Shown piece after piece: positions 2,775 through 64,000 of a stretch of 64,000 nucleotides of DNA. The DNA lies in the NCBI RefSeq assembly GCF_017301735.1, contig NZ_CP071090.1, positions 3,338,001 to 3,402,000 of the forward strand, read 5' to 3'. Below the pieces are notes generated by a model. The model was not told the DNA's origin. It did no database searches and saw only the letters and a program-made list of their open reading frames with translations. How positions within the stretch are numbered: the stretch's first letter is position 1; each line of letters starts with the position of its first letter. Made by a program: the position numbers and the translations under genes. The stretch comes from Pyxidicoccus parkwaysis (GTDB taxonomy: Bacteria > Myxococcota > Myxococcia > Myxococcales > Myxococcaceae).

Positions 2775-5700
2775 ATGCACTTGTTGACGCGCGCCGACCC
2801 CGCCACCGAATTCGTTTGTCCCGAGGACCTCACCTTCGTGGACCTCTGCCGCACCCGGGCCATGGCTCAGGGCGCGCAGAATGTCTTCACCTTCCTGGAG
2901 GACGAAGGCGAGCGCACCGTCACCTACGCGGAACTGGACGCGGGGGCTCGGGCCGTTGCCGCGCTGCTCCAACGACATCTGGCTCCAGGTGAACGCGCGT
3001 TACTGTTGTATCCGCCGGGCCGCGAGTACGTGCTGGGCTTCCTGGGGTGTCTGTACGCGGGAGTGGTGGCGGTGCCCGCGTATCCACCGGACCCGATGCG
3101 GCTGGGGCGCACGCTGCCCCGGCTCCAGGCGCTGGTGGCGGACTGCGGGGCGCGCGTGGCGCTCACCACGTCCGGCATCGCGGAGATGGTGGAGTCGCTC
3201 ACGGCTGACGCGCCGGACCTGCGCGCGCTGCGCTGGCTGGCCACGGACGCCGTGCCTGAGACGGAAGCGGCGCAGTGGCGAGCGCCGAAGCTCACGGGCG
3301 ACGCGGTGGCGTTCCTCCAGTACACGTCGGGCTCCACGGGGACGCCGCGCGGCGTGGTGCTGCGGCACCGGCACCTGCTGCACAACTCGGGGTTGATTGC
3401 GCGCGGGTTCGACGCGAGTCCGAATCCGGTGGGCGTCATCTGGCTGCCGCCGTACCACGACATGGGGCTGATTGGCGGCATCCTCCAGCCGCTGTTCCGC
3501 GACGTGCCCACCGTGTTGCTGCCGCCGCTGTCCTTCCTGCAGCGCCCGCTGCGGTGGCTGGAGGCGGTGTCGCGCTTCGGCGGCACGGTGAGCGGCGGGC
3601 CCAACTTCGCGTTCGACCTGTGCGTGCGCAAGAGCACGCGGGAGGAGCGGGCCGCGCTCGACTTGAGCCGGTGGGAGGTGGCGTTCTGCGGCGCGGAGCC
3701 GGTGCGCGCGGAGACGCTGGAGCGCTTCGCGGAGGCCTTCGCGCCCTCGGGCTTCCGGCGCGAGGCGTTCTATCCCTGCTACGGGCTGGCGGAGGGGACG
3801 CTCATCGTCACCGGTGGGAAGCGCGCGGCGGCGGCGGTGGTGCGGCGCTTCGCGCGTGAGGGGCTGCGGCTCGGCGAAGCGCGAGCGCCGGTGGACGGTG
3901 AAGTGGAGGCGGTGCTCGTCGGGTGCGGTGAGTCGCTGGGCGGGCAGGAGCTGCGCGTGGTGGACCCGGAGACGGGCGTGCCGAGCGCGCCGGGGCGCGT
4001 GGGTGAAATCTGGGTGCGTGGGCCCAGTGTCGCGGATGGGTACTGGCAGCGGCCGGAGGAGACGGCTCGCACGTTCCAGGGGCGGCTGGCGGGCTCGGGT
4101 GAGGGGCCGTACCTGCGCACGGGAGACCTGGGCGTCATCGAGGGTGGCGAGGTGTTCGTCACCGGGCGACTGAAGGATGTGCTGGTGCTGCGCGGGCGGA
4201 ACCACTACCCGCAGGACCTGGAGTTGTCGGTGGAGCGGAGCCACCCGGGCCTGCGCCCCGGTTGTGGCGCGGCGTTCTCCGTGGAGGTGGATGGGGAGGA
4301 GCGGCTCGCGCTGGTGCAGGAGGTCTCCACGAAGGTGGCGGGAGACGTGGATGACGTGCTCGCGCGCATCCGTGCCGTGCTGGCCGAGGAGCATGGCGTG
4401 GCCGCGCATGCGGTGGTGCTCATCTCCGCGGGCGCGCTGCCCAAGACGTCCAGCGGAAAGGTTCAGCGGCGCGCGTGCCGCGAGGCATTCCTGGCCGACA
4501 CGCTGGAGGTGGTGCGGGAGTGGCGGGAGGGGACCACCGCGAGGGACGAGGCACAGGTGGGGCACGCGGCGGAGGGTTCGCCAGGTTCTGATGACGGAGC
4601 TTCGGCGGCGCGGTCCGACGCTGATGCAGGTGACGTGCGGGCGGGGCGCGCTGCGGCGAGCTCGAGAGGGGGCGATGCTGGAGCGTCGGCGGCGCGACCC
4701 GAGGGGCTCACGCCCGAGGCGGATGCACGCAGTGACTCCGAGAACAGAGAGGTCGCGCCGGGGCAGGGCGACGTGCTCGCGTGGCTCCGGCCCCGGGTGG
4801 CACGGCTGCTCGGTGTGGCCGCGCATGAATTGAACGTGGATGTACCGCTCACGCACTTCGGCCTCGACTCGCTCCGCGCGCTGGAGGTGCTGCATGCGGT
4901 GGAGGAGGGCTGGCGCGTCTCGCTTCCGCCCGCGTTGCTGCTCCAGGGCCCGAGTCTTCGCGAAGTCACGGCGTGGGTGGATCAGAAGCGCGGTGAGGCT
5001 TCGCGCACTGAGGCGTCCACTGGCGCCGAGGCTGCCACGACCTACGTGTCCGATGGACAGCGTGCACTGTGGTTCCTCCAGCGCATGGCGCCTGGAAGCA
5101 CCGCGTACCACGTGGCCCGCGCGGTGCGGTTCACCTCGTCCGTCGATGCCGCCGTGCTCGGACGTGTGTTCTCGGCGCTCGTCGCGCGCCACCCGGCCTT
5201 GGCCTCCGCGTTCCCCGAGGAGCGCGGCGAGCCCGTGCTGCGGCCCTCGGCCACCGTGCCCGCACTGGAACTGGAGGATGCTTCCTCGATGACGGCGGAG
5301 ACGCTGCGCGAGCGGCTCGACGCCGAGGCGCACCGGCCTTTCGACCTGGAGCGTGGACCCCTGGTGCGTGCGCGCCTGTTCGCCGGTGCGCCGGGCGGGC
5401 CCGTGTTGCTCTTCGTGCTGCACCACCTCATCACCGACTTCTGGTCGCTGGAGGTGCTGGCCGAGGAGCTCGGCGCGCTCTACACCGCCGAAGCGCAAGG
5501 CACCTCCGCCGCCCTGTTGCCGCCGCCACCGCCGGCTCCCGCCATCCTCCGAGCGCAAGAAGCCCGCTACACCGGAGCCGCCGGCGATGCGCTCCAGGCG
5601 TGGTGGCGTGAGCGACTGGGCGGCGAGCTGCCCGCGCTGGAGCTGCCCACTTCGCGGCCGCGTCCCCGGCTCCAGTCCTTCCGAGGGGCCACCGTGTCCT

Positions 5701-57497: not shown

Positions 57498-57787
57498 GAG
57501 CATCTCCTTTGGGTGGACTGCTCGCCCAGCCTCAGTCCGTTGCGACTCCAAGTAAATACGGGTTTCCCCTCTGTCCGGGTGCGCAACGCGTCTGTGATTG
57601 GAATGGAGTGGGGGCGGTATTTTGTACTCCCAGGATTGAACAGTTGCCTGGTCTCCCCAGGATTGAATGTGGGAGACCCACCCCTCATTTTCTAGGCTGC
57701 ACCTTGTCTTCTTGTGTCCTTAGCTGGAGATCGTCCTTCTTGAGCACCGCCCGTCAGCCCGTCCAGCCCCCTGCAGAAGGAGTGGCC
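57498..57787. other. Repeat-bearing gap between Cys-rich protein and histidine kinase
   Basis: This 290-bp gap is more AT-rich than the rest of the window. It holds two copies of CCCAGGATTGAA (57629-57640 and 57656-57667) and a perfect 8-bp inverted repeat GGTCTCCC/GGGAGACC (57650-57657, 57671-57678) followed by a short T-run. It must contain the promoters of both divergent genes. I could not assign a -35/-10 pair with confidence. Confidence 0.5.
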
Positions 57788-59293
57788 GTGCAGCCGCCCC
57801 GCCAGAGCGAGGAGCGCTACCGGCTCGCCATCCAGAGCGTGAAGGACTACGCCATCTTCCTGCTGGACACGGAGGGTCGGGTCCAGACGTGGAACTCGGG
57901 CGCCGAGGCCATCAAGGGCTACTCGCCCGGGGAGATCATCGGCCACTCCATCACCCGGTTCTACACGCCCGAGGACGTGGCGGATGGAAGGCCCCAGCGG
58001 CTCTTGGGCCTCGCCGTGCGGGACGGGCGCGTGGAGGACGAGGGCTGGCGGGTGCGCAAGGACGGCTCGCGCTTCTGGGCGGACGTGGTGATTACGGCGC
58101 TCCGGGACGAGTCCGGGAAGTTGTGTGGCTTCAGCAAGGTGACGCGGGATTTGACGGCGCAGCGCGCGGCGGCGGAGGCGCTTCGCCAGAGTGAGCTGCG
58201 CTTCCGCCTGCTCATCCAGAGCGTGAAGGACCACGCCATCTTCATGCTGGACCCGACGGGCCACGTGGCCACCTGGAATACGGGCGCCGAGCGCATCAAC
58301 GGCTACACGCCCGAGGAGATCATCGGCCAGCACTTCTCCCGGTTCTACGTCCCCGAGGAGGCGGCGAGCGGCAAGTGCGAGCGGGAGCTCGAGACTGCCG
58401 TGACCGAGGGGAAGTTCGAGGAGGAGGGCTGGCGGGTGCGCAAGGACGGCTCGCGCTTCTGGGCGAACGTCGTCATCCAGCCGATGTGGGACACCGACGG
58501 GAAGCTGCTCGGCTTCGCGAAGGTGACGCGGGATTTGACGGAGCGGCGCAACGCGGAGGCGGAGCGCCTGCGGCTCGCGCAGGCGCAGGAGGCCATCCGC
58601 CTGCGTGACGAGTTCCTCTCCATCGCCTCGCACGAATTGAAGACGCCGCTGAGCGCCATCCAGTTGCAGCTCCAGAGCCTGCTGCATGGCGGAGGCGAAG
58701 GTCTGGAGTCCCGGCTGCGCCAGAAGGTGGGGCGCGCGCTGCGCAGCGGCGGGCGGCTGGCGGAGCTGGTGGAGACACTGCTGGACGTGTCGCGCATCGC
58801 CACGGGGCGGCTCGTGTTGAGCCCCCGCCCGTTCGACCTGTCGCGCGGCGTGGAGGAGGTCGTCGAGCGCTTCCGGGAGCACGCCGAGCTGCAGGGCTGT
58901 GACGTGCACCTCCAGTTGGAGGAGTCCGTCATCGGTGAGTGGGACCCGCTGCGCGTGGAGCAGGTGGTGACCAACCTCTTCTCCAACGCGCTCAAGTACG
59001 CGGCGGGGAGCCGGGTGGATTTGGCGGTGCGCGCCGAGGGGGACAAGGCCATCCTCACGGTGTCCGACCAGGGCCCGGGGGTGCCGGAGACCGAGCGGGA
59101 GCGCATCTTCGGCCGCTTCGAGCGCGCGGTCTCCATGCGTCACTTCGGCGGGATGGGGCTGGGGCTGTACGTGGCCCGGCAGATTGTCGAGGCGCACGGG
59201 GGCACCATCGCCATCGAAGGCGTGGAGCCCCACGGGGCCCGGTTCGTCGTCACCCTTCCTCGCGCGCCGAAGCCGGCGGCGGCTCCGGGCTAG
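57788..59293 (+). CDS. PAS-PAS sensor histidine kinase
   Basis: 501 aa if started at the GTG at 57788, which has AGAAGGAG 5 nt upstream and begins VQPPRQSEERYRL just before the first PAS domain; longer starts read through the AT-rich gap. Two tandem PAS domains (about 10-130 and 135-260), each with the pattern AIFxLDxxGxVxTWNxGAExIxGYxxxEIIG and ending in FxKVTRDLT, are nearly duplicates of each other. A short coiled coil leads to HisKA (SHELKTPL, phospho-acceptor His282) and HATPase (NLFSNALKY, DQGPGVP, GMGLGLYVARQIV). No membrane segment, so cytosolic ligand or redox sensing. No response regulator is adjacent. It ends in a CTAG shared with the convergent flavoprotein gene. Confidence 0.9.
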   Translation: MQPPRQSEERYRLAIQSVKDYAIFLLDTEGRVQTWNSGAEAIKGYSPGEIIGHSITRFYTPEDVADGRPQRLLGLAVRDGRVEDEGWRVRKDGSRFWADVVITALRDESGKLCGFSKVTRDLTAQRAAAEALRQSELRFRLLIQSVKDHAIFMLDPTGHVATWNTGAERINGYTPEEIIGQHFSRFYVPEEAASGKCERELETAVTEGKFEEEGWRVRKDGSRFWANVVIQPMWDTDGKLLGFAKVTRDLTERRNAEAERLRLAQAQEAIRLRDEFLSIASHELKTPLSAIQLQLQSLLHGGGEGLESRLRQKVGRALRSGGRLAELVETLLDVSRIATGRLVLSPRPFDLSRGVEEVVERFREHAELQGCDVHLQLEESVIGEWDPLRVEQVVTNLFSNALKYAAGSRVDLAVRAEGDKAILTVSDQGPGVPETERERIFGRFERAVSMRHFGGMGLGLYVARQIVEAHGGTIAIEGVEPHGARFVVTLPRAPKPAAAPG

Positions 59294-60723
59294 ACGCCGA
59301 GCGCGTCGACCTCCTCCCTGGCTCCGAGTCCCAGGGCGTGGGCGGCTCGCGCGGCGGCGAGACCGAGGATGCCCGCGTACGTCGGGAAGGAGAGCGGGAG
59401 GCGGGCCAGCTCGGACACCTTCATGTTCGAGGCGATGACGATGGCCGCGACCTGGCAGAGGTCCACGGCCCGCTCGCCGACGACGTGGCAGCCGAGGACC
59501 TCGCGGCGAGCGCGGTGGACGACGAGCTTGCAGAACCCGGCCGGACGGCCGTCGATGATGGGGCGGGTGGACGCGTCGAACCCGGCCACCGCCACCACCA
59601 CGTCATGTCCCGCCGCTCGGGCCTGGGCTTCGGTGAGCCCCACCTGCGCATACTCGGGGTCGGTGAAGCTGCCAATCGGTGACACCGGGTTGCCGAGCTC
59701 CTCGACATCGCCGCGCACGGCGTTGGTGGCGGCGACGAACCCCGCTTGCAGGGCCTGCGGGACGAGCATCATCTGGCCCGTGATGTCTCCCGCCGCGTAG
59801 ATGCCCGGCGCGGAGGTCCGGAGGTGGGAATCGACGCGCACGAAGCCACGCGCATCGAGCTCGACTCCCGCCGCGCCCGGGTTCAGCGCCGAAGTGTCGG
59901 CGACCCACCCGACGGCGATGACGGCCAGCGAAGCCTCCGCGCTCTGGCGGACTCCATCCTTCGAGTACGTCATCCGCACTCCGCCGGGAGTCTGCTCGAA
60001 GCGCTCGATGTTGCCGAAGCCCTCGTGCACGCCGATGCCCGAGGCCCGGAACGCGGCCGCTACGGCGGCGGACACGTCGGCGTCCTCGGTGGTCAGGATG
60101 CGGTCGGCCCTCTGGAACAGGTCCACCCGCGAGCCGAACGCGCCGAAGACGGACGCCACCTGGACCCCCGTCGCTCCCGCGCCGATGACCAGCATCGACT
60201 CCGGCACCGACGTGAGCGCCCACGCATCGCTGTGGGTCTCCGTCAGCTCGGAGCCGGGGACCGCGAGCTTCCGGCTGACCCCGCCTGTGCACAGGATGAT
60301 GCGGCCTGCCCGGAGCCGGTGGCCACGCTCCGTCTCCACGCTCTTCGCATCGACGAAGCGGGCCACACCGGCATGTTCGTGAATGACGACTCCCGCGGCC
60401 TCGAGCTGGCCGCGGAGCGCGGAGTGGCTCCTGACTTCCTGCACCACCTCACCGGCCCTCGCGAGGAGCCGGCGGTAGTCCAGCGTGGGCTCGCCCACCT
60501 CGATGCCGTACGCGCCCATCTGGCGGGCCTCCCGAAGCAGCCGTGCGGCATGCGCCAGCGTGCGGACCGGGACGGGGCCGTCGTTCGCAGCCATGCCGCC
60601 GAAGGCGCCACGCGTGACGAGGGCCGTCCGTGCTCCGAGGGCACCTGCGCGGAGGGCGGCGGAGACTCCCGCCGGTCCGGCTCCAATCACCAACACGTCC
60701 AGCGCTGTGCCGGTGGCTCTCAA
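59290..60723 (-). CDS. FAD/NAD(P)H oxidoreductase of the disulfide-reductase fold, without the redox cysteines
   Basis: 477 aa. FAD-binding GAGPAGVSAALRAG near the start, NAD(P)-binding VIGAGATGVQVASVFGAFG in the middle, GIYAAGDIT for FAD, then a C-terminal dimerisation domain. The redox motif GG-x-C-x4-C of the lipoamide dehydrogenase group is replaced (GGMAANDGPVPVRTLAH; both Cys lost), and the C-terminal His-Pro-Thr reads FPT. It therefore cannot be a disulfide reductase and probably moves electrons from NAD(P)H to another acceptor. I start it at the TTG at 60723, whose last two bases overlap the TGA of the DyP gene (TTGA); no ATG or GTG fits before the FAD motif. Last gene of the DyP unit. 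Confidence 0.82.
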   Translation of the reverse strand: MRATGTALDVLVIGAGPAGVSAALRAGALGARTALVTRGAFGGMAANDGPVPVRTLAHAARLLREARQMGAYGIEVGEPTLDYRRLLARAGEVVQEVRSHSALRGQLEAAGVVIHEHAGVARFVDAKSVETERGHRLRAGRIILCTGGVSRKLAVPGSELTETHSDAWALTSVPESMLVIGAGATGVQVASVFGAFGSRVDLFQRADRILTTEDADVSAAVAAAFRASGIGVHEGFGNIERFEQTPGGVRMTYSKDGVRQSAEASLAVIAVGWVADTSALNPGAAGVELDARGFVRVDSHLRTSAPGIYAAGDITGQMMLVPQALQAGFVAATNAVRGDVEELGNPVSPIGSFTDPEYAQVGLTEAQARAAGHDVVVAVAGFDASTRPIIDGRPAGFCKLVVHRARREVLGCHVVGERAVDLCQVAAIVIASNMKVSELARLPLSFPTYAGILGLAAARAAHALGLGAREEVDALGV

Positions 60724-62054
60724 GACTCGAGCTCGGCGAGCCAGCGCAGCGCGCGGAGCCCGGGCATGAAGCAATACTCGCCACCGCGCGTGACGACGAA
60801 CTGGGAGAGGCCACGAAGTCGCTTGGGAATGTGACGTCTGGGAATGGAGAACGAGCCCGTGCCCGCGTTGGGCCCGGTGACAGGGTCCTTGGTATCGCCC
60901 AGGCCCAATGACGTACCCGCGTTCACCCATTCCGACTGCACGAACTCGAACTGCCGTCCCAGGTGGGCGCCGATGAACGCGAACATCAATCCCCGGTCGA
61001 CACCGTCATCCTCCAGCACGCCCTCGGGAAGTACCGGGCCATACGCGGTGCCCCGGCGAATCATCCGGTGCAGCCTCACGACTCCGGCCACCGGGGTGTC
61101 GCGTGGATTCATGCGCCGGATGTGGCAGCCCGCGGGCGTCTTGTAGCCGGTGGGGTCGTCCGCGTACTGGAAGGCATTGTTCCTGTCACGGTCCGCGCCC
61201 AGCGCGGCGTCGTCCGCGGCGGGGCAGAGCGCGAGCGGGGCGCCGCTTCGCCAGCGGCCCATCAGCTTGGCCGCGAGCCACTCTTCTTCGGCGGAGGACT
61301 CCGCGTTCTCCCGCAGGTACCGCCGGAAGGCCGCGACGCGCTGGTGCAGCTTGCGGAAGACCGCATACGTGCCATTGCGTCCAAGGACTTCCGGCTGGGG
61401 AACGGGGCTGATGCCTCCCATCTCATCCGGATAGCCGAGCACGAACTCACCGGGCTTGAGCGGCGGCTCGTGCGGGTTGGTGCCCGGAATGCCGCTCCCC
61501 TCTATCGCGGGATGGTTGATGCCATCCCGGAAGCCGAAGGGCTCTGTCTCGGTGGGCAGCGCGTGGCAGTCCTGTCGCCAGATAGGCGTGACACCCGGCA
61601 GCGTCTCGAAGGCCTTCCGAGCCCTCGTCAGCTCGCCGTCGAGCATCTGTCGATTCGGGCCGAGCGCCACCACGATGATGTGGACGTCCGAGGTGCCCAG
61701 CGGATGCTCCCAGTGTTCGGGGCTGCTCTCGCCGGTGTCGCCCAGCGCGCTCGCTCGGGCGGACATTCCCTGCTGGAACTCCCAGGAGAAGCTCCGCAGC
61801 GACTCTGGAGGAAGGCCCAGGGACTGAAGCCCCCAGTACGTCAGCGCCACGGACACCCAGGCGCGGCCCGCGAGCCGGTCGGGATTGGCGGCCGACGCGA
61901 CGACTTCACTGAGCCGCCCGAGCGCCTCTCGCCCGGCGGCCCGCTCGTCGACGCGCAACAGGATGTAGCTCGCGGCATAGGGCGTAGGCCGGGGACGCAC
62001 CACTCCCGCCTGAATGTCTTCCAACTCCAGCAGGCCGTCTTTGCGTCCGGGCAT
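60720..62054 (-). CDS. DyP-type heme peroxidase
   Basis: 444 aa, within the range of the longer DyP classes. GFRDG at 174-178 is the family signature with the distal Asp177, and CHIRRMNPRD carries the likely proximal heme ligand His311. N- and C-halves have the twin ferredoxin-like fold pattern. It should oxidise phenols, dyes or other large substrates with H2O2. No Tat or encapsulin-targeting tail is visible, so it may be cytosolic or act on cargo of its neighbours. It lies 9 bp after the unknown 337-aa gene and overlaps the flavoprotein gene by 4 nt, so the three are cotranslated. Confidence 0.9.
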   Translation of the reverse strand: MPGRKDGLLELEDIQAGVVRPRPTPYAASYILLRVDERAAGREALGRLSEVVASAANPDRLAGRAWVSVALTYWGLQSLGLPPESLRSFSWEFQQGMSARASALGDTGESSPEHWEHPLGTSDVHIIVVALGPNRQMLDGELTRARKAFETLPGVTPIWRQDCHALPTETEPFGFRDGINHPAIEGSGIPGTNPHEPPLKPGEFVLGYPDEMGGISPVPQPEVLGRNGTYAVFRKLHQRVAAFRRYLRENAESSAEEEWLAAKLMGRWRSGAPLALCPAADDAALGADRDRNNAFQYADDPTGYKTPAGCHIRRMNPRDTPVAGVVRLHRMIRRGTAYGPVLPEGVLEDDGVDRGLMFAFIGAHLGRQFEFVQSEWVNAGTSLGLGDTKDPVTGPNAGTGSFSIPRRHIPKRLRGLSQFVVTRGGEYCFMPGLRALRWLAELES

Positions 62055-62063
62055 GGTGCGCGC

Positions 62064-63077
62064 TCACCGGGCCAGGCAGATGTTCTTCCAGAAGCGCTCG
62101 AGGCTCTCGTCGACGCCGAACAGCGTGGAGAAGACGGTGGAGTCCACGACGAGCACATCCCCCGCGCGCTCGCCCGCGGGCGGTACCCAGACGCAGGTGT
62201 TGAACTCGCGGTTGCCGGCCGCGGTGAACGGGTGGGGTGGCCGGGTGAGGTCGATGGGCTGCCGCGCCAGGACCCTGGCCGCCTTGCCCTTCGGGTCGAG
62301 CACCTCGTAGTGCGGCAGGTGGAAGTGGAGGTTGAACGACGTCACGCCCGTCAGGTAGCCCCGCGTGTCCAAATCGCGTTGGATGGTGAGCGGCGCGATT
62401 CGCTTGCCCGAGGTCGCGGGGCGAAGGCCGAAGCGGTTCTCGACGGGAATGCCCAGGCTCCTCAGGATGGAGCGGCAGAACAGGCCGAAGCGCTGCTGCC
62501 GGGGCACCAGGGCATCGCCATGGTGGGCATACTCCATGGCGCGCTCCTCCATGTTGGAGGACGCCCCCACGTCGTGATGCGGCCCGATGACGAGACACGT
62601 GCCCTCGCGCTTGAGGAAGGCCCGCATCGCCTCGAGCTCTCCGGCCGAGGCCTCCTGCTCCGTCGCCATGTGGTCCAGGCCGAAGAGGAGCAGCGTGTCC
62701 GTGTCGCCGAGCACCCGCTCGTCGAGCGGCAGGGAGAAGCCGGCCTGGTCGACGCGCTGGAAGACGGGCACGGTGTGTCCCGTGACTTCGCCGGCCACCT
62801 GCTGGAAGCGGGTCCAGGCCCAGAAGAAGAGCTCCAGCGAGCCCGCGATTCCCTGCTGGAACCGCCGCGGGTCCGCGAAGCGGGGGTCCTCGTACTCCGG
62901 CCAGAGCACCCGGCGCACTTCCGTCATGGTCGAGAAGCGGTTGTCCATGACGGTGACGTCCCGGTTCGCCTCGCCGGGGTACGTCCAGGAGACGTAGACG
63001 CTGACCCGCCGCCGCCCGCGCTCATACTTCCGTGGCACGTGGTTCTGGTTGTATGTCCGAGCGGGTTCGGTCTGCAT
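62064..63077 (-). CDS. Unknown protein in the DyP unit
   Basis: 337 aa. I choose the ATG at 63077 because CCGGAGGA is 6 nt before it; a GTG six bases earlier abuts the Shine-Dalgarno sequence. The protein is soluble. Recognisable stretches are DTDTLLLFGLDHMATEQEASAGELEAM, then LKREGTCLVIGPHHDVG (a Rossmann-like strand-turn, as in ThuA or GATase-like folds) and FNLHFHLPHYEVLD. Histidine-rich spots (GPHHDVG, YAHHGD, HFHLPHY) could bind metal. No family recognised. Placement between the ferredoxin-like protein and DyP, with tight spacing, suggests it supplies or uses the peroxidase reaction. Confidence 0.7.
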   Translation of the reverse strand: MQTEPARTYNQNHVPRKYERGRRRVSVYVSWTYPGEANRDVTVMDNRFSTMTEVRRVLWPEYEDPRFADPRRFQQGIAGSLELFFWAWTRFQQVAGEVTGHTVPVFQRVDQAGFSLPLDERVLGDTDTLLLFGLDHMATEQEASAGELEAMRAFLKREGTCLVIGPHHDVGASSNMEERAMEYAHHGDALVPRQQRFGLFCRSILRSLGIPVENRFGLRPATSGKRIAPLTIQRDLDTRGYLTGVTSFNLHFHLPHYEVLDPKGKAARVLARQPIDLTRPPHPFTAAGNREFNTCVWVPPAGERAGDVLVVDSTVFSTLFGVDESLERFWKNICLAR

Positions 63078-63119
63078 CTTCACTCCTCCGGCCAGGAGGG
63101 CATGGCGGGGAAGGACGGC

Positions 63120-63659
63120 TCACTGGAGCTGGTCGAGCATGTCCGAGAGTGACTCTTTGACTCTCAAGGCCTTCTTGATTTCGTCAGCGGTGACGTAGGG
63201 GTACTCGCCATACTCGAGGAAGCTCGGGCATTGGTGTTCCCGCACGAAGCGGACGAAGGCTTCCGGGTTGGTCTTCCAGTCGGAGGGGAAGCCCTCCAGG
63301 TTCTCGAAGACGGTATCGACGCCGACCTTCTTGAACAGCTCCACCGCGTCCTCGGTGTATTTGTCGAAGTCGGTGTCGAAGATGCCCTGATACATGAAAC
63401 GTGTATCGTTATCGAAGAGCACCCATCTCAGGTAATGGAGCTTGAGTGGCGCGAGGGCGGTCGGGTCGCTCTCGACGGTCTTCGCCAGTTTCTGGCCATA
63501 GCCTCGGATGGCGTCCGCCCGGCCGGGCTTGACCTTGGCGATGATGGTGAAGCCATGACAGGCAGGAGTCCGGGGCCAGATGGGGCCGTATTTTCCCTTC
63601 GGCAGGGAGTCGTCCTGCTTCGGAAGCGCCATTGCCGCGGGCTTGAGTTCGCGTTCCAT
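63120..63659 (-). CDS. Conserved small protein, possible dimeric alpha-beta barrel
   Basis: 179 aa from the ATG at 63659, preceded by GGGGGGAGCAAG. It has the strand-helix-strand rhythm of ferredoxin-like alpha-beta barrels: HGFTIIAKVKPGRADAIRGYGQKLA, then LHYLRWVLFDNDTRFMYQGIFDTDFDKYTEDAVELF. Heme- and quinone-handling monooxygenases of the ABM type share this fold, as do DyP half-domains, so a link to the peroxidase is plausible but unproven. First gene of the minus-strand unit, 42 bp before the unknown 337-aa gene. Confidence 0.65.
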   Translation of the reverse strand: MERELKPAAMALPKQDDSLPKGKYGPIWPRTPACHGFTIIAKVKPGRADAIRGYGQKLAKTVESDPTALAPLKLHYLRWVLFDNDTRFMYQGIFDTDFDKYTEDAVELFKKVGVDTVFENLEGFPSDWKTNPEAFVRFVREHQCPSFLEYGEYPYVTADEIKKALRVKESLSDMLDQLQ

Positions 63660-63954
63660 GTCTTGCTCCCCCCTGTGTTTCCGGCCCGGGTTCAAGGTGA
63701 AGACGCGACTGTTGAGCGTCAACCAGCACTCTCGTCGGTCGGGCGCACAGTGCGGCTTCGAGCGGTGGCTCCCTGCCGATGTCAGGCGCCCTGGCGGGGA
63801 AGGCATGTCCGAAGGGCTCAGCGCCCGGGAGCGACGCGGGTGGGACGACAGGTACCCGGATCGTCCTGACTGGCATCAACCCATGACGTCTCCTCGCTCG
63901 TCGAGTGCAGATCCAACCTAGCGCCTGAACGCACGGTCAGTATGTTGATCCGCT
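63660..63954. other. Divergent region with the dnaE2 control site
   Basis: This 295-bp gap lies between the DyP unit (minus) and dnaE2 (plus). The only element I can support is the LexA box at 63925-63940. The rest shows no repeat, RNA gene or credible open frame; it should hold the promoter of the DyP unit near 63670-63750. Confidence 0.4.
63925..63940. promoter_or_regulatory. LexA (SOS) box upstream of dnaE2
   Basis: CTG-AACGCACGGT-CAG on the plus strand, again CTG-N10-CAG. The reverse strand plus one flanking base matches 16 of 17 positions of the Myxococcus LexA motif as I remember it. The dnaE2 GTG begins only 14 nt later, so the transcript must have a very short leader or none. Confidence 0.75.
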
Positions 63955-64000
63955 GTGGACTACGCCGAGCTCGTCTGTCGCTCCAACTTCTCGTTCCTCC
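63955..64000 (+). CDS. dnaE2: Error-prone DNA polymerase DnaE2 (partial, 5' end only)
   Basis: Only 15 codons fit in the window: VDYAELVCRSNFSFL. This is the opening of the PHP domain of C-family polymerase alpha subunits, and the sequence around ARSNFSFL is typical of DnaE2/ImuC. The start is the GTG at 63955, because an in-frame TGA stands at 63946-63948 and no ribosome site favours another codon. With ImuA and ImuB it should form the SOS mutasome. It is about 17 kb from imuAB here. Confidence 0.75.
   Translation, partial: MDYAELVCRSNFSFL

Follow-up and report, generated by a model that had tools for sequence, protein, structure and literature searches.

The natural role and the substrates of DyP-type peroxidases are described as an open question in the cited sections of a study of DrDyP from Deinococcus radiodurans (PMC10820274). 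DrDyP (DR_A0145; class C, new class V; PDB 8re2 and 8re3) was studied alone in that work; the same sections report a low-spin haem and no activity at physiological pH, and raise, as speculation, a control of its activity by other proteins. DyPs with accessory genes are also found in the DyP encapsulin systems, where the accessory genes named in the cited part of PMC8346489 include DUF1345, DUF5709, cupin and others. Here we analyzed 64,000 nucleotides of the Pyxidicoccus parkwaysis genome (13.2 Mb in a single contig; NZ_CP071090.1, positions 3,338,001 to 3,402,000; this whole stretch is referred to as the window), in which a 179-residue protein (P179), a 337-residue protein (P337), a DyP and a flavoprotein are encoded one after the other (Table 1). 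The DyP has DrDyP as its nearest solved relative and shares the same D, H and R residues; like the encapsulin DyPs it has accessory genes, but these are P179 and P337 and none of those listed above. The initial annotation had read the four genes (59290-63659) as one coupled unit with two partners of no known relatives and no described counterpart. The open reading frame (ORF) coordinates bear out the coupling (42 bp between P179 and P337, 9 bp between P337 and DyP, and a 4-nucleotide overlap between DyP and the flavoprotein gene), and P179 and P337 gave no credible Pfam, NCBIfam, PADLOC or PDB-sequence match. No description of the P179-P337-DyP module was found in the open-access literature searched, most subscription papers being outside that scope. 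By sequence comparison, the conserved unit is three genes (P179, P337, and DyP), not four, and it spans phyla.

P337 is present in 29 of 195 genomes of the phylum (Myxococcota), and P179, at at least 50% identity, is found in the same 29; six further genomes have P179-like matches at 23-29% identity only. DyP adjoins both P179 and P337 in all 29 P337-bearing genomes (28 fetched loci and the window). In one of them (G077; L068, 5567-8323), P179 and P337 are interrupted by stop codons next to a DyP that reads through, possibly a shared decay of the two partners. A wider scan of 84,980 species gave 362 P337 relatives, of which the best 80 loci were analyzed (these lean to close relatives, and some of their species are also among the 195 genomes of the phylum); the full triad is together in 79 of the 80. 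Gene order in these loci is P179-P337-DyP in 74 and P179-DyP-P337 (the second order) in five; the remaining one, L123, is an exception. In evenly drawn samples of 386, 396, and 385 genomes, the triad was found in all six strong matches apart from the seed genomes (G199, G202, and G196); one more match was dropped (G1231: 34% identity over 104 residues, E 5.7e-4, no module neighbours found in L171). The triad is rare outside the phylum, at three of 386, five of 396, and two of 385 sampled genomes with the seeds and the weak match included, and its hosts include Myxococcota, Actinomycetota, Pseudomonadota, Acidobacteriota, Gemmatimonadota, Ignavibacteriota, cyanobacteria, and other phyla. Its recurrence is far beyond chance. 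The four-gene unit of the initial annotation, checked by conserved neighbourhood, therefore stands for P179, P337, and DyP, which are conserved together in other genomes, and does not stand for the flavoprotein, which is optional.

The triad also appears to move. The nearest named P337 match in the wider scan is that of Pyxidicoccus caerfyrddinensis (Myxococcaceae; 94% identity), and homology between this species and the window genome is limited to the three genes (about 60712-63771 of the window, 91% identical), with no flanking match longer than 150 bp within the fetched sequence. Plasmids of Streptomyces and Nostoc bear the triad as well; this plasmid carriage and the patchy distribution would agree with movement as a cassette.

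The comparison further shows P179 to be a divergent member of an uncatalogued family of small proteins whose genes adjoin DyP genes or are fused in front of them. A tblastn search of plasmids with P179 gave 50 records, eight of them P337-type triads; in 41 of the 50 the P179-like match has a DyP match no more than 3 kb away, and in 35 of these no more than 300 bp away. Of the other nine records, the one examined (L154) carries a fused DyP segment. A P179 profile matches 13 of 18 tested proteins, with scores from 68.6 down to 30.9 bits (the very small database flatters the E-values); of the other five, GranA (19.1 bits) and the L032 protein (8.5 bits) are weak, GranB (5.0 bits) is doubtful, and two L035 proteins gave no match. 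Small genes matched by the profile stand beside DyPs in Rhizobium, Rhodococcus, Methylorubrum, Paracoccus, Sphingomonas, Acinetobacter, Sinorhizobium, Bradyrhizobium, Streptomyces (L147), and D. radiodurans, and two fusion proteins match too. These are a 976-residue protein of Rhizobium leguminosarum (a P179-like segment, then DyP) and a 1620-residue protein of Sulfitobacter (L154, 2559-7421; an N-terminal cytochrome P450, a P179-like segment, then DyP). Both carry the P179-like and DyP parts in one chain with the P179-like part first, as in the triad order; unlike the triad, they are single polypeptides with hydrophobic stretches, and no P337 was annotated or recognised beside them. Among 23 aligned rows of the family, Y101 and P125 are kept in 23, H75 and R78 in 22, D95 in 21, Q143 in 20, and H142 in 18, giving the motif H-x2-R ... 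D ... Y ... P ... HQ. It is likely, judging from these arrangements, that P179 binds its DyP directly. Two loci have two small genes in tandem before the DyP (L159, 4845-6128; L160, 4770-6009): both are P179-like in Bradyrhizobium, and one is weak and one doubtful in Granulicella; a heterodimer is possible.

Single-chain models of P337 and P179 were made with AlphaFold2 from alignments of 35 and 34 rows, respectively. The P179 model is weak (mean predicted local distance difference test score, pLDDT, of 73); its best VIA-align match is 7byu (Z 7.9, root-mean-square deviation [rmsd] 3.1 over 100 residues), many other matches are antibiotic-monooxygenase, NIPSNAP, and mutarotase rows (all with Z below 8), and there was no Foldseek match at E 0.001. 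A match of P179 to an NDC80 chain among PDB sequences (E 0.006) was put down to chance. The term "ferredoxin-like" used in the initial annotation refers to a tentatively predicted fold of P179, and not to an iron-sulphur protein.

The window DyP matches 8re3 over residues 9-442 (phmmer E 2.4e-124) and is 47% identical to DrDyP. It falls just short of the curated models (TIGR01413, 97.0 against a cut-off of 100.5; PF21105, 27.0 against 27.5), and PF04261 has no match anywhere in the window genome, so it is a divergent DyP. Its distal motif is GFRDG, at 174-178, and D177, the axial H311, and R333 align with DrDyP D189, H324, and R348 (numbered as in the cited sections of PMC10820274); the D, the axial H, and the R are kept in all 97 aligned DyPs, and the last G of the GxxDG motif is changed in seven DyPs of the second gene order and four others. 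A supposed loss of the haem-ligand His in the second-order DyPs was rejected: H329 (in LHRM) had been mistaken for the axial residue, which by the published DrDyP numbering is H311. Since the catalytic residues are kept, peroxide use, as proposed in the initial annotation, is plausible. The window genome encodes a second divergent DyP (L032, 1468-3057), next to a 324-residue ORF (2963-3937) with a weak P179-like segment. No encapsulin shell gene was recognised by eye among the neighbours recurring in at least five triad loci.

The same arrangement of a small gene before a DyP gene is found at the DrDyP locus. In the record of D. radiodurans isolate DRR11, which we take to hold DR_A0145 because the residue numbers given in the cited sections on DrDyP fit its sequence, a gene for a 243-residue P179-family protein, at 4821-5552 of locus L149, lies directly upstream of the DyP gene, with one base between them. 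The third gene there is of a catalase family, and not P337 as in the triad; it is taken to be DR_A0146. With DrDyP reported as inactive in those sections and a P179-family gene found upstream of it, a missing partner is a direct hypothesis.

The initial annotation had also pointed to His-rich spots in P337, and here it was right: HH167-168, HH185-186, H251, H253, and H282 are invariant or nearly so in alignments of 14 and of 35 sequences, and HH167-168, D169, HH185-186, D188, H251, H253, and H282 persist in paralogues only about 40% identical, which we treated as a separate group. This conserved His/Asp set suggests a metal site. P337 has no Pfam family at E ≤ 1, and its 35 members searched against Pfam at E ≤ 0.1 gave two single-member matches only, neither of them ThuA; the weak Pfam and NCBIfam matches of P179 and P337 (GH113, HelD, NUP210, and others) were put down to chance. 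The P337 model (mean pLDDT 78, predicted template modelling score 0.84) was aligned by VIA-align with the IFT52 N-domain (5fms; Z 15.1, rmsd 3.0, 200 residues), with ThuA-like 1t0b (Z 13.0, rmsd 3.5, 209 residues), and with several GATase1 proteins (Z 10-12); Foldseek gave two matches only at E ≤ 0.001. The fold of P337 is therefore predicted to be of the class I amidotransferase/ThuA-like type, in common with ThuA-like and class I GATase-like proteins (1t0b, 4jqs, 3rht) and the IFT52 N-domain. Class I glutamine amidotransferases have a conserved Cys nucleophile. Unlike all of these proteins, to which no sequence relationship was detected, P337 has a conserved His set instead, and no Cys in the invariant or near-invariant columns of the two alignments. 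P337 belongs to a wider unnamed enzyme family. Distant paralogues (about 40-46% identity) are found in L035 (8025-8978), L067 (5983-7014), L036 (5992-6978), and L038 (5995-6972); those of L035 and L067 adjoin a pyridoxal phosphate-dependent decarboxylase, and that of L036 lies between DUF692 and DUF2063 proteins, with DoxX, surroundings that we take to be a bufferin-like operon.

We tentatively explain the locus as a mobile three-gene operon for a partner-dependent DyP peroxidase and a second pathway enzyme. P179 would dock on the DyP and might, less surely, shape the haem pocket or bring the substrate; the docked DyP, of a kind blocked at neutral pH in the nearest solved relative, would then be able to use H2O2 to oxidise a small organic substrate. 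P337, His-rich and probably metal-dependent, might hydrolyse or rearrange the product; the flavoprotein, where present, would use NAD(P)H to recycle an oxidised product or a quinone; and an SBF transporter, often encoded nearby, would move the acid. A bolder form of this explanation, possible but doubtful, is that the DyP branch consists of two-component enzymes that need a P179-family subunit at neutral pH, which would be why DrDyP on its own is inactive, and that the P337 triad is an undescribed, horizontally spread pathway whose His-rich metalloenzyme represents a new family.

Several observations weigh against the partner-dependent operon. In L123 (Obscuribacter), the 80th locus, P337 and DyP are together and P179 (65% identity) is on another contig. 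The P179 model is weak, as noted, and the P179-DyP fusions indicate proximity only, not contact in the three-gene form; the metal dependence and the enzymatic role proposed for P337 are tentative. M190 of DrDyP corresponds to G178 in the window DyP, so the block on DrDyP may not apply here. At pH 8.5 the M190G variant of DrDyP still had a hydroxide and a water close to its haem, according to the cited sections of PMC10820274, which neither proves nor excludes the need for a partner. Finally, neither the flavoprotein nor the SBF transporter is constant around the core.

The alternative that survives best, although we consider it unlikely, starts from the P179-DyP loci that lack P337. Seven of these (L147, L149, L151, L152, L153, L156, and L158) have a third gene of one catalase-like family; the catalase-family protein of L150 is unlike the other seven and was not counted, and L155, L159, and L160 have neither P337 nor a catalase-like third gene. 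The catalase-family operons, found on plasmids of Rhodococcus, Paracoccus, Sphingomonas, Acinetobacter, and Methylorubrum and in Streptomyces (L147), share with the triad the same DyP subfamily and a homologous small protein, but the catalase-like protein replaces P337 (which gave no match to it) and the small proteins are about 24-31% identical to P179. Their surroundings would fit an oxylipin-like or lipid oxidation, with P179-DyP as a peroxygenase or hydroperoxide converter for fatty or hydrophobic acids, and the catalase-like protein or P337 converting the product: a cytochrome P450, a ferredoxin, and an FAD-dependent oxidoreductase in L152 (and the P450 within the same chain in L154), a thioesterase and a patatin-like phospholipase in L156, and a 3-hydroxyacyl-CoA dehydrogenase in L149 and L158. 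Around the P337 triad itself, the gene found most often encodes an SBF (bile acid:sodium symporter-type) transporter, in 32 or 33 of the 80 loci and near many actinobacterial copies, which would also suit lipid substrates. However, no lipid gene is constant among the loci, and none could be recognised near the window triad; SBF carriers also move non-lipid acids, and the nearest NCBIfam models include, far below cut-off, a pantoate carrier. Our neighbour survey took in genes recurring in at least five loci; apart from the flavoprotein, no other real-looking family is found within 4 kb in more than five loci (one such family is a Phenol_MetA_deg protein in Caulobacterales). A fixed regulator was considered and rejected, as response-regulator-like and sigma-factor-like ORFs (recognised by eye) occur in five and six loci, and within 4 kb in two each.

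Less likely still is a general defence against H2O2 or organic hydroperoxide stress, with the DyP as scavenger. DR_A0145 and DR_A0146 are both raised after ultraviolet C (UVC)/vacuum exposure, according to the cited part of PMC5731708, which speaks for it. A scavenger that is inactive at physiological pH, as reported for DrDyP, would be of little fit, and the cited passage of PMC7247583 reports DR_A0146 to be without catalase activity, though that of PMC7143949 only places it below KatE1 in efficiency. P337 lacks peroxidase-like features and is conserved to the same degree as the DyP, and a distribution as patchy as 29 of 195 genomes is unlike that of a core stress defence.

The comparison of the two gene orders bears on a further possibility, namely that the enzyme proper consists of P179 and P337, with the DyP as an interchangeable helper that supplies electrons or handles haem or iron. 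The second order was also found in two Nostoc plasmid loci and six even-sample loci. Between the order types, P179 is about 66% and P337 about 68% identical, and DyP 45% (medians over pairs of 12 × 5 loci; 11 × 5 for P179). In a tree of 38 of the 97 DyPs (18 of the first order, six of the seven of the second order, and 14 others), the two order types form separate clades, with forced monophyly rejected by the approximately unbiased (AU) test (p-AU 0.0103), and the catalase-associated DyPs group with the first-order type; in the P337 tree, the second-order type is nested inside the whole. (L073, L075, and L080 were left out of the P337 tree and L099 out of the DyP set; the matches are intact in all four loci.) In all seven second-order DyPs examined, GxxDG reads GYRDR and F358 is replaced by A or V, so that their distal pocket differs. 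The simplest reading of these sequences would be a DyP swap beneath one P179-P337 pair; the branch to the second-order DyP group is long (0.89), and faster evolution is a possible alternative to a swap. The interchangeable helper would draw on this unequal divergence, on the rejected monophyly, and on G077, where the P179-P337 pair may be decaying together beside a DyP that reads through. The long branch weakens the argument, and the D, axial H, and R kept in 97 of 97 DyPs argue that haem catalysis is used; we regard the helper role as improbable, more so than the stress defence.

The flavoprotein has the domains PF07992 (Pyr_redox_2, 173 bits) and PF02852 (Pyr_redox_dim, 86 bits). It was called Cys-less in the initial annotation, and this holds only for the redox-active Cys pair, which is absent from all 19 full-length sequences, where a GGMAANDGPVPVRTL-type stretch replaces CxxxxC; the window protein has four Cys (145, 398, 412, and 423). 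Without the redox pair it is not a usual disulphide reductase. A flavoprotein at at least 45% identity is present in 20 of the 80 loci (18 full length; L090 and L127 partial), directly downstream of DyP in 14, upstream of P179 in four, and apart from the triad in two; matches below 45% on the other strand (L134 and L140) were not counted. In the other 60 loci, the fetched flanks gave no match to the flavoprotein (five of the 60 are cut short by a contig end), and none was found in the nearest relative (L069, from G113), whose core genes are 89-94% identical to those of the window. In the phylum, where eight candidates per genome were scored, orthologues at E ≤ 1e-140 occur in 15 of the 195 genomes, that is, in 15 of the 29 triad-bearing ones, and always adjoin the triad. 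With 15 of 15 orthologues beside it, the flavoprotein looks like a dedicated but optional add-on, and its place as a constituent of the unit is not upheld. A peroxide-fuelled four-component pathway, along the lines of the initial annotation, would have the flavoprotein generate H2O2 out of NAD(P)H and O2 for use by the DyP on a substrate that P179 and P337 prepare. Such a pathway could appeal to this exclusive association and to the 4-nucleotide overlap of the flavoprotein gene with DyP in the window and several relatives, but is the least likely of the alternatives, as 60 of 80 loci are without a match, so that the flavoprotein is not an obligatory H2O2 source in the operon, and six of the 20 others have it upstream of P179 or apart from the triad.

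Table 1. The four genes of the locus, in positions of the window.
Feature	Position	Strand	Description
P179	63120-63659	minus	179 aa; opens the module; one domain, predicted as ferredoxin-like (dimeric alpha+beta barrel type)
P337	62064-63077	minus	337 aa; His-rich; predicted class I amidotransferase/ThuA-like fold
DyP	60720-62054	minus	444 aa; DyP-type haem peroxidase, DrDyP type (nearest structure 8re3)
FAD flavoprotein	59290-60723	minus	477 aa; pyridine nucleotide-disulphide oxidoreductase fold; optional fourth gene

On either side of these genes, a PAS histidine kinase gene (recognised by eye; 57509-59293, plus strand) meets the flavoprotein gene tail to tail with a 4-nucleotide overlap (59290-59293), and a divergent DNA polymerase III alpha-like gene (DnaE2-like, by eye) lies upstream of P179, from 63955-64000 of the window onward (L161, 6956-9985). 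A PADLOC search for anti-phage defence gave no match, and no relatives of P337 and P179 were found in viral contigs, the search not including a phage-record collection.

P179 and P337 thus represent two families without a Pfam or NCBIfam model, in an apparently mobile operon. For one branch of DyPs, which includes DrDyP, an enzyme of known crystal structure and unexplained physiological trigger, the P179 family supplies a specific candidate partner.

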